Assembly: GCA_021805205.1 (NCBI GenBank)
Contig: JAJZFV010000043.1
Span: 124,001 to 188,000, forward strand
Reading direction: 5' to 3'
DNA from: Actinomycetes bacterium
Lineage (GTDB): Bacteria; Actinomycetota; Acidimicrobiia; Acidimicrobiales; Acidimicrobiaceae
DNA length: 64,000 nt
A program made the position numbers and the translations under genes. Positions 48,907 through 51,737 of the stretch are shown here, in pieces. Position 1 is the stretch's first letter; every line of letters starts with the position of its first letter. The notes below the pieces were generated by a model that ran no database searches, had not been told where the DNA came from, and saw only the letters and a list, made by a program, of their open reading frames with translations.

Positions 48907-49404
48907 TTGAAGATTTCAAATCCCGTAAAGGCGCTTGTTGCAACCGGAGGAGGACTAGGGGCAATTCTCGCCTTACATCAAGTGCAAACATCATTCTCCA
49001 CCGTAAATACCTCCTCTAGCAAGGCGGAAAATCCAATAGTCGCTCAGCAAAAAGAGGTAACTGCGCTCCAGGGTGCCATAACATCTCTATCTGGTCAAGA
49101 GCGACAGATTCAAAGTCAACTTTCCCAAACCCAAAGTCAACTTGCTCAAAAACAGACTGAGCTACAGAATGCTACCCAAAGTGTTATCAACGAGCAGAAT
49201 CAGGCTCGTCAAGCCGCCGCTGCTGCCGCTGCGAATTCGCTGCAGCAGATATCATCAGCAACGTCTTCTGCATCTACGCCAGTTGCGTCCAACAGCGCAG
49301 TATCAATTCCTACAACGGCGGCTCCCACAGTCTCCGCAAGTACTACCCGCGCCTCTGTTTCACATTCTTCGGACGATGATTCCAGCGGGGGAGGCGACGA
49401 CTGA
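48907..49404 (+). CDS. Exported coiled-coil protein (unknown), first gene of ApbE locus
   Basis: I do not recognise the family. The 165 residues have an N-terminal hydrophobic segment ('ALVATGGGLGAILALHQV', ~9-26), a Gln/Ser-rich coiled coil with heptad-like 'QIQSQLSQTQSQLAQKQTEL' (~60-105), an Ala-rich linker, a Ser/Thr-rich stretch and an acidic Gly/Asp end ('SSDDDSSGGGDD'). It is probably membrane-anchored and faces outside. The start is TTG with a strong GGAGG six bases upstream. I see no D-x-x-S/T-G-A-T flavinylation motif. Confidence 0.75.
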   Translation: MKISNPVKALVATGGGLGAILALHQVQTSFSTVNTSSSKAENPIVAQQKEVTALQGAITSLSGQERQIQSQLSQTQSQLAQKQTELQNATQSVINEQNQARQAAAAAAANSLQQISSATSSASTPVASNSAVSIPTTAAPTVSASTTRASVSHSSDDDSSGGGDD

Positions 49405-49408
49405 GGTC

Positions 49409-49960
49409 GTGCGAGATAAGTTGGACGAAAAACTACGCAAGAAGAAGATCAGCAAGCTAAAGACTTCTGCAAGAAGAATTGCACCGGTGGCCATCCTTGT
49501 GCCAAGCGTTGGTGCACTCACAAACTATGCCGTAACCTACGTCTCTGCGCCAAGCCATCTCTACCCACTGCTCCAAACTGCAGACGCCAAGGCTAAAGCT
49601 AAGCAAAATCTACAGACCTCCAAAGAGATAAATCAGCTGGCACAATCGATCAACAAAAGCGCTGAGCAACTAGCGTCCATATCGAGTCAGGCCCAGTCCA
49701 ATCAAAACACCATCAACTCCATCTCTAACGGCATCAATGGGATCAAAAATACGCCGATTCCGACGCTTGGCCCATTAGCTACACCACCGTCTGGGACTGC
49801 AGCTGCGACCCAAAGCCGTCTACAGCCAAGTTCTAGCTACAGCAACAAACCAACGTCAGCACCAACAGCAGCCCAATCCCCACCACCGCGCCCGATAGTT
49901 TCAGCAGCTCCACCTATTCAGCTTCCAGCCGCAACTACACGCTCTAGCCAAATCGGATAA
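49409..49960 (+). CDS. Exported coiled-coil protein (unknown), second gene of ApbE locus
   Basis: About 183 residues from GTG 49409, just after the previous stop. A basic N-terminus ('KLRKKKISKLKTSARR') precedes a hydrophobic helix ('VAILVPSVGALTNYAVTYV'), then a coiled coil (~55-105, 'INQLAQSINKSAEQLASISS') and a Pro/Ser/Thr-rich tail. The layout copies that of the gene before, suggesting paired extracytoplasmic stalks. The ORF track extends to 49142 only because the other frame is open through the previous gene; an ATG at 49376 is an alternative start. Function unknown. Confidence 0.7.
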   Translation: MRDKLDEKLRKKKISKLKTSARRIAPVAILVPSVGALTNYAVTYVSAPSHLYPLLQTADAKAKAKQNLQTSKEINQLAQSINKSAEQLASISSQAQSNQNTINSISNGINGIKNTPIPTLGPLATPPSGTAAATQSRLQPSSSYSNKPTSAPTAAQSPPPRPIVSAAPPIQLPAATTRSSQIG

Positions 49961-49963
49961 TTT

Positions 49964-50980
49964 ATGGCCGCCCCAACCAAAACCTTTACCATCAAAAAAA
50001 TGGGAACCATATTTAATTTAAAAATTCAAAGCAGCAAATATAGTGAATCTTGGATTGAAGAGATAACGAGCCTTCTCGAAGAGTTGGAAGAATCTTGGAG
50101 CAGGTTTCGGGAGAGCTCAGAGCTATCGCGGTTGAATAGAGATCGCCATCTCGATTCACCAACCGAGATCTTCAAGTTGGCGCTAAAGGCTTCAATTAAC
50201 GCGAACGAAATGACCGGTGGGGTTTTTGAGCCGCGGATACTCAAAGCTCTGGAGAACATAGGCTACGACAGAACATTCAATACGATCAGCCCTACGTCAT
50301 TTGAGATTGAAACAAGTCGGCCCATCTCACTTCCACCAATTCGCGACGACATTTTAATCACGCCCAACCAGATCACTATAAGATCCGATGCTCGAATTGA
50401 CTTTGGAGGCATAGGAAAATGCCTCGCCATCCAAGAAGTTTCGAGCTGGATTACGCATCAGGATACTGATTCATCGTTCTTGATTGATGCCGGCGGAGAT
50501 ATCATCGCGAGATCTTCAAGCGGTCAACCATGCTGGTACATAGATATTGAAGATCCCAACAAAAGTCGCCCATTATCATTTTGGATTCGAATCGCAAATG
50601 GTGCTGTGGCCACTTCATCTCCATCGATCAGAAATTGGAAAAGCGGAGCAAAAGTCAAGCATCACTTGATCGATCCTAAAACCATGGATAGTTCTACGTC
50701 AGACCTTGCCTCAGTAACAGTTGTTGGGAAAGTTGCTTCAGAGTGCGAGGTTTGGTCCAAGTCTCTCTTTCTCATGGGGAAGGAGAAGGGAGCGGCTCTA
50801 GCTGAAATCAAAAAGATCGCAGCGATATTCATTGACCACAAGAGCAACGTTGAAGCGACGACCACATTCGATCGTTACATAGAAGTTCGAGGAGAGAGCG
50901 TAACTGCAGCTAATTGCGCAGAGCACACTGACTTCTCCTCCCCGCTTTCAAACTTCACCTACATACACCTCGTTCATTAG
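49964..50980 (+). CDS. apbE: FAD:protein FMN transferase
   Basis: ApbE family, 338 residues: covalently attaches FMN to Thr/Ser of redox proteins outside the cytoplasm. 'RFRESSELSRLNR' (~45), 'RIDFGGIGKCLAIQEV' (DxGGIxKG-type FAD loop, ~145), 'LIDAGGDIIARSS' and 'HHLIDPKTMD' (H-x-I-D-P, ~225) are present. No signal peptide or lipobox is obvious at the start, which is odd for an exported enzyme. It lies three bases after the previous gene and 13 before a ferric-reductase-like gene. The acceptor protein is not apparent. Confidence 0.9.
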   Translation: MAAPTKTFTIKKMGTIFNLKIQSSKYSESWIEEITSLLEELEESWSRFRESSELSRLNRDRHLDSPTEIFKLALKASINANEMTGGVFEPRILKALENIGYDRTFNTISPTSFEIETSRPISLPPIRDDILITPNQITIRSDARIDFGGIGKCLAIQEVSSWITHQDTDSSFLIDAGGDIIARSSSGQPCWYIDIEDPNKSRPLSFWIRIANGAVATSSPSIRNWKSGAKVKHHLIDPKTMDSSTSDLASVTVVGKVASECEVWSKSLFLMGKEKGAALAEIKKIAAIFIDHKSNVEATTTFDRYIEVRGESVTAANCAEHTDFSSPLSNFTYIHLVH

Positions 50981-50993
50981 CAACGGAAATAAG

Positions 50994-51737
50994 ATGACGA
51001 CAACCGATCGCAATAAATTCTCTGAAATCAAGGCAACCGATCTAAGTCCAAATGCGGAGGACACCCCGTCAGTCCTTTTTGCAATTGTTGTGGGATCGGC
51101 CTCAGTGATCGGTGGCTTTTACCTCGTCCGATGGCTCTCAAAGTCAAGCAGACCCCAAATAGCTCCGTGGGTTATATCGCGAGGAACCGGCTTAGCACTT
51201 GTAATTGTCTCATCGTTACTTGTGATAATCGGACTTTGGATGGTTCATCCGAAGCGCAACAAAAAGAAGTCATTTCCACACATAGTGACGCTAAACAGTG
51301 CACACAAGACACTTGCTGCGATCGGAGTGGTCCTTCTCTTTCTCCATGTTTCCTCAATCGTCGTTGACTCCTTTGCAAACGTGGGGCTTCTTGGTGCCCT
51401 AGTCCCTTTCATGAGCAAATTTAAGGCTGTGCCAGTGGCACTTGGAACAATATCCCTCTATTCGATGGTAGTCATCGGTTTTACAGCTTGGTTGAAAGTT
51501 AGATTCGAGCGCTTCAACTGGAAGACGATCCATCGTTTTGCGCTATTTGCCTACTTGGTCGTAATGGTCCACGGGATTACATCTGGATCGGACACCGTCT
51601 TTTTAGGCGCGCTATACATAGTGTCACTCCTTCTAGTGGCGATACTTGCCGTTACCCGCTATATATTCGATCATCCACGCAAAAAGACAGAGTCAGACGC
51701 TAACCGCGGAGGAACGAAGCCGTCTCTTCAGGTGTGA
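50994..51737 (+). CDS. Ferric-reductase-like transmembrane protein, predicted di-heme
   Basis: A 247-residue protein with six predicted helices and no FAD or NAD domain. Helix 3 has H-x13-H ('NSAHKTLAAIGVVLLFLH') and helix 5 has H-x12-H ('HRFALFAYLVVMVH'), the spacing of the two bis-histidine b-hemes in NOX/FRE-type ferric reductases. It should pass electrons across the membrane. With ApbE beside it, an external flavoprotein partner is likely. Its 3' end overlaps the convergent GalT-like gene by 38 bases. Confidence 0.82.
   Translation: MTTTDRNKFSEIKATDLSPNAEDTPSVLFAIVVGSASVIGGFYLVRWLSKSSRPQIAPWVISRGTGLALVIVSSLLVIIGLWMVHPKRNKKKSFPHIVTLNSAHKTLAAIGVVLLFLHVSSIVVDSFANVGLLGALVPFMSKFKAVPVALGTISLYSMVVIGFTAWLKVRFERFNWKTIHRFALFAYLVVMVHGITSGSDTVFLGALYIVSLLLVAILAVTRYIFDHPRKKTESDANRGGTKPSLQV

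Follow-up and report, generated by a model that had tools for sequence, protein, structure and literature searches.

A compact operon of four genes, w1-w2-apbE-fr, in the 64,000-nucleotide stretch of actinobacterial DNA that we analyzed (the window) probably encodes a membrane electron-export unit. In this unit, the small proteins w1 and w2 would serve as FMN acceptors that carry the flavin at a short tag on a tail and have no folded flavin domain. We hold this reading with moderate confidence. Flavinylation of the tags, the site of the modification, the direction of electron flow, and the end acceptor are all what we infer for the operon.

The operon and its occurrence

The earlier note on this DNA had described four closely packed genes, and both their coordinates and their order proved correct. 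All four lie on the + strand between positions 48907 and 51737 (Table 1), with intergenic gaps of 4 (w1/w2), 3 (w2/apbE), and 13 (apbE/fr) bases, and the operon is flanked on the opposite strand by a chemotaxis receptor gene upstream and a GalT-like gene downstream. The source genome (2.6 Mb in 55 contigs) falls within the genus of Acidithrix ferrooxidans, whose strain PY-F3 carries its own copy of the operon (L035/L055). The operon is kept in all 12 same-genus genomes compared, and w1-w2-apbE-fr is also present in other genera, with w1 and w2 diverged. The same operon type was seen in metagenome-assembled genomes (MAGs) labelled Clostridia and Dormibacterota (L070 and L074), where transfer or mis-binning is possible.

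The source genome has a second operon with apbE, a ferric-reductase-like gene, and a NuoF-like gene (G000:C42, L052:4072-7920). The tail protein encoded in this paralogous operon has 119 amino acids and the C-terminal end ATATGGS. A NuoF-like gene is found as well in sister operons of the window type (L048 and L049).

Architecture of w1 and w2

w1 has a membrane helix at the N terminus, a long helix spanning residues 43 to 119 (pLDDT above 90 over much of its length in the AlphaFold model), and a disordered S/T-rich tail, the C-terminal part of which holds the tag and then an acidic end. w2 has a basic N terminus, a single membrane helix, and a disordered S/T/P/A-rich tail with the tag at its end. 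Pfam gave no match to the FMN_bind domain in either protein. Matches of w1 to GrpE, SMC, myosin, and similar families were rejected as coiled-coil composition, not homology.

Homologues of w1 and w2 were seen only with the operon and in the same genus, except for one weak w2 match (E = 4.7e-4) from a different family in the order. The earlier note had tied the two proteins to apbE, and this association held: no copy of either was found away from apbE, and both sit at the same locus in 12 of 12 Acidithrix-genus genomes, allowing for broken contigs.

The acidic C terminus of w1 is a possible metal-binding tail. w1-like partners elsewhere have longer D/E/H-rich tails at the end. At several loci (L081, L105, L119, L122, L123, L130, L135, and L144), the gene preceding that of the tail protein or preceding apbE encodes a membrane-anchored protein with a D/E/H-rich C terminus, and these C termini possibly bind metal, too.

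Table 1. Genes and C-terminal features of the operon (window positions)
Feature	Position	Strand	Remarks
w1	48907..49404	+	TTG start, GGAGG before start; proposed FMN acceptor
w1 tag T146-T147-R148-A149-S150	49342..49356	+	Proposed FMN on S150
w1 acidic C terminus DDDSSGGGDD	49372..49401	+	D/S/G-rich; G162, G163, and D164 invariant in genus
w2	49409..49960	+	GTG start; proposed FMN acceptor
w2 tag T176-T177-R178-S179-S180	49934..49948	+	Three residues before C terminus; proposed FMN on S180
apbE	49964..50980	+	FAD:protein FMN transferase family; Pfam ApbE E = 4.5e-45
fr	50994..51737	+	Six-helix MsrQ-like/ferric-reductase-like protein, predicted di-heme

A conserved C-terminal tag

In alignments with relatives, most of the tail of w1 and w2 is variable and a short tag is kept. 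The w1 tag has the pattern TT-x-A-S, about 15 residues before the end, and is followed by the acidic D/S/G tail; w2 of the window and its closest relatives ends in the pattern TT-x-x-S-x-x-G. In 10 Acidithrix-genus copies, the T, T, A, and S of the w1 tag are invariant and are written with 4, 4, 3, and 4 different codons, and the T, T, and S of the w2 tag are invariant with 4, 4, and 2 codons. Since each invariant residue is written by up to four codons, selection acts on the protein rather than on the DNA. Both proteins have a conserved Ser/Thr acceptor candidate in a tag context that is selected at the protein level.

The known ApbE motif, D-x-x-[ST]-G-A-[ST], is seven residues long and works best at protein termini; replacement of its Asp by Ala has a minor effect, and serine is accepted as the acceptor (PMC12052999). 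The window tags, ASTTRAS in w1 and AATTRSS in w2, do not have this full motif. They are degenerate, with Arg for Gly and no Asp, and w2 also has Ser in place of Ala, a position at which two close relatives have Pro. The forms seen in other genera, SATTGAS, HATTGAS, HGSTGAS, and TSGAS, match the core of the known motif. There, the w1 tag becomes TTGAS, and the counterparts of the w2 tag in relatives are ATTRAS, HATTGASGLG, or HGSTGAS. Some relatives have an exact terminal TGAS or SGAS, and the paralogous operon class encodes a single short tail protein with the exact end TGAS, TGGS, or SGGS. The tag pattern recurs in order- and phylum-level relatives. The earlier note had seen no evident flavinylation motif in w1 and w2. 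This looks wrong, because comparison with relatives reveals a conserved C-terminal tag in each of the two proteins, which grades into the canonical [ST]GA[ST] across the relatives.

The complete motif was found as DGATGAS in one acidic apbE neighbor from another order, a protein with no Pfam domain. At that locus (L145:7095-8032), two adjoining acidic-tail proteins are encoded beside apbE, one of them with DGATGAS, and the 12 kb examined there contained no ferric-reductase-like gene.

We examined 87 ApbE loci, 64 of which have a small membrane-anchored S/T/P/A-rich protein encoded directly upstream of an apbE without FMN_bind. The strict motif [ST]GA[ST] was present within the last 10 residues of 18 of these 64 proteins, versus none of the 507 other open reading frames (ORFs) in the same loci. 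Shuffling of the last 60 residues gave 0.57 proteins with the strict motif on average and 4 at most. Counted by sequence cluster, the motif occurred in 6 of 22, versus 0.14 expected (maximum, 2). A looser pattern, which was picked after seeing the data, covered 49 of the 64 proteins and 16 of the 22 clusters. The window w2 matches neither the strict nor the looser pattern and is assigned by homology to the tagged relatives.

The tag might instead be recognized by another process, such as O-glycosylation or cell-wall attachment, with apbE nearby by coincidence. Glycosylation would be plausible in any case, given the S/T/P-rich tails on two proteins that appear to be exported. However, the restriction of the strict motif to the apbE-upstream proteins argues against this explanation, as does the apparent lack of sortase-like and glycosyltransferase genes in the operons, and we regard it as quite improbable.

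Several distant ApbE loci have no recognizable tag. The genus labelled g8 (four genomes; L085, L098, L099, and L110) has the gene order apbE-fr-nuoF, in which a tail protein was not found, and it stays an exception to the tail-protein pattern. The fr protein of this genus has a short C terminus.

The ApbE of the operon

The third gene encodes an ApbE, in agreement with the earlier assignment (Table 1), and aligns with ApbEs in the PDB with E values down to 1.7e-18. No N-terminal signal was found in the window protein; cytosolic ApbEs are known (PMC12052999). The catalytic Ser and His are kept, as T217-S218 and H234 align with the Ser and His of a solved ApbE. The canonical catalytic/metal-site Asp and a nearby Thr are not present, and the window protein has E262 and K266 at these positions; the change from Asp to Glu is conservative, while that from Thr to Lys is not. 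E262/K266 is shared by the window ApbE and its relatives (class A), and a second class (class B) has Asn. Judged from the alignment, a change in metal use is possible in both classes. A co-loss of the tail protein and the usual ApbE residues in genus g8 was considered and dropped, since tagged class B ApbEs proved to have similar residues in a wider alignment.

These substitutions, together with the degenerate window tag, are what one might expect if the ApbE were not a protein FMN transferase, and instead bound or hydrolyzed FAD or passed electrons, with the tag as a docking peptide for ApbE or the di-heme protein. An FAD-hydrolyzing ApbE homologue is described in a previous report (PMC4767422). 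However, the core Ser and His of the enzyme are conserved, and the tag of the relatives fits the acceptor motif down to the terminal Ser/Thr, the residue to which FMN is attached. We consider this alternative unlikely, although clearly less so than glycosylation or cell-wall attachment.

Pairing of ApbE subtypes with FMN_bind

The source genome has FMN_bind proteins at two other loci, each beside its own short ApbE. These loci (L050:3941-6850 and L051:5007-7868) are canonical modules of a flavo-ferric-reductase-like protein, an FMN_bind protein, and a short ApbE without signal peptide, with the FMN_bind motifs TGATYTS and SGASYTT. The window ApbE is of a long subtype that is never paired with FMN_bind in the relatives: among 60 relatives, FMN_bind adjoins 30 of 30 short ApbEs and 0 of 62 long, window-type ApbEs. 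Moreover, FMN_bind genes are entirely missing from 24 of the 42 genomes that encode a long ApbE; some of these 24 are incomplete, and several are 94 to 97% complete.

The two FMN_bind proteins of the source genome would allow the window ApbE to flavinylate an acceptor encoded elsewhere, with w1 and w2 as structural partners. The pairing of every FMN_bind gene with a short ApbE, the lack of such pairing for the long ones, and the long-ApbE genomes without an FMN_bind protein make this very improbable, and we rejected an unlinked FMN_bind protein as the acceptor on the basis of the short-ApbE pairing. There was no co-variation of an FMN_bind acceptor elsewhere with the window apbE, a possibility that the earlier note had raised against itself. 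The search for alternative acceptors covered NqrB/RnfD and DUF2271, none of which occurred in the 11 genomes tested.

These results support the description of a compact ApbE and di-heme electron-transfer locus without an FMN_bind acceptor. The acceptor had been suggested to be either missing or of a new type; the second was a good guess, and w1 and w2 themselves are probably the acceptors.

The predicted di-heme membrane protein

fr is the counterpart of the proteins that Meheust et al. 2021 (PMC8238504) called "MsrQ-like." Its match to Pfam Ferric_reduct (E = 2.7e-5) is below the family cutoff, and its counterparts in sister operons are over the cutoff. The His pairs noticed before, H104-x13-H118 and H180-x12-H193, show no variation among 12 homologues, and these four conserved histidines predict two heme sites. 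An invariant loop, H193 ... G198-x-D200, begins with the last of them. The AlphaFold model predicts six helices, the third and fifth of which carry the pairs. Its top fold matches were NOX5, SpNOX, and STEAP, with a TM score of about 0.44 and a best E value of about 0.01; a profile search of the PDB returned nothing, and the relation to NOX and STEAP comes from fold comparison only. The fold match is supportive rather than conclusive. fr shares with NOX, STEAP, and bacterial SpNOX the six-helix core and the four conserved histidines but differs from them in having no FAD/NAD domain.

Proposed electron pathway

In the reading that we favor, ApbE would transfer FMN from FAD to the final Ser of each tag, S150 of w1 and S180 of w2, forming a phosphoester bond. 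The acceptors would consist of an N-terminal membrane anchor and a flexible S/T/P-rich tail, to which w1 would add a long helical stalk, and the FMN would be a tethered swinging arm instead of part of a folded FMN_bind domain. As the window ApbE has no signal, flavinylation is assumed to occur in the cytosol before export. Electrons would enter fr from the inner side, from quinol or from NADH via a NuoF-like partner as in the sister operons, and would pass from the outward heme to the tethered flavins of w1 and w2 and then to an outside acceptor, for which Fe(III) is plausible in these acidophiles. We propose this direction because of the redox potentials, which overall favor transfer from NADH or quinol through flavin to Fe(III) but not the opposite.

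Some observations speak against this explanation. A hydrophilic flavin on the tail would need to cross the membrane if ApbE is cytosolic, and the degenerate window tags, the Glu/Lys site of ApbE, the absence of a tail protein from g8, and the tagless distant loci are weak points.

A. ferrooxidans reduces Fe(III) (PMC4417699, PMC8790237). This physiology and the acidic tails on w1-like partners suggest a role of the operon in iron metabolism; neither is proof, and it is from them that we infer such a role. If the tags do carry flavin, it is quite possible, at somewhat less than an even chance, that the electrons go to quinone, oxygen, or disulfide or methionine-sulfoxide targets outside the membrane, and not to iron. 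MsrQ serves periplasmic methionine sulfoxide reduction (PMC8238504), and no iron transporter was identified in the operon. However, no MsrP-like or other reductase gene adjoins the operon in the window, and the Fe(III) reduction by these organisms also argues for iron.

Relation to known systems and meaning

MsrQ-like proteins adjoin apbE mainly in Actinobacteria, usually with FMN_bind and sometimes with a NuoF-like, NADH-oxidizing protein, and some of these flavinylation clusters are linked to iron (PMC8238504). The window and its relatives share with these systems a PF01794-type di-heme membrane protein beside apbE. FMN_bind is typical of them but not universal (PMC8238504), and the window has instead two small tail-tag proteins without a recognized flavinylation domain. 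The Flavin-tag method (Tong et al. 2021, as described in PMC12052999) likewise shows that a terminal seven-residue ApbE motif suffices for covalent attachment of FMN; that tag is engineered and has the full motif, whereas the window tag is apparently natural, Ser-ending, and degenerate. In FMN_red proteins with a C-terminal extension (Huang et al. 2024, PMC11334425), FMN is also on a serine in an unstructured extension, but the flavin docks back into a folded flavin-binding domain, which w1 and w2 do not have.

No report of tail acceptors of the w1/w2 type was found in the open-access literature, to which the search was confined. The chances seem to us evenly balanced that such proteins form a widespread, apparently undescribed class of ApbE acceptors in Actinobacteriota and possibly Dormibacterota. 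Members of this class would be disordered tails, anchored in the membrane and ending in a natural flavin tag, that serve MsrQ-like di-heme proteins as swinging-arm FMN carriers. Often they would lie next to a partner whose tail is acidic and may bind metal, and the enzyme that modifies them would be a separate long subtype of ApbE, unpaired with FMN_bind.

If this is true, a natural carrier of covalent flavin can do without a folded flavin domain and needs no more than seven residues on a flexible tail. Flavinylation surveys that rely on domains would then overlook part of the electron export of Actinobacteria, and the orphan ApbEs in genomes without FMN_bind would be explained. The operon would also be a specific candidate for the transfer of electrons outside the cytoplasm in acidophilic actinobacteria that cycle iron.
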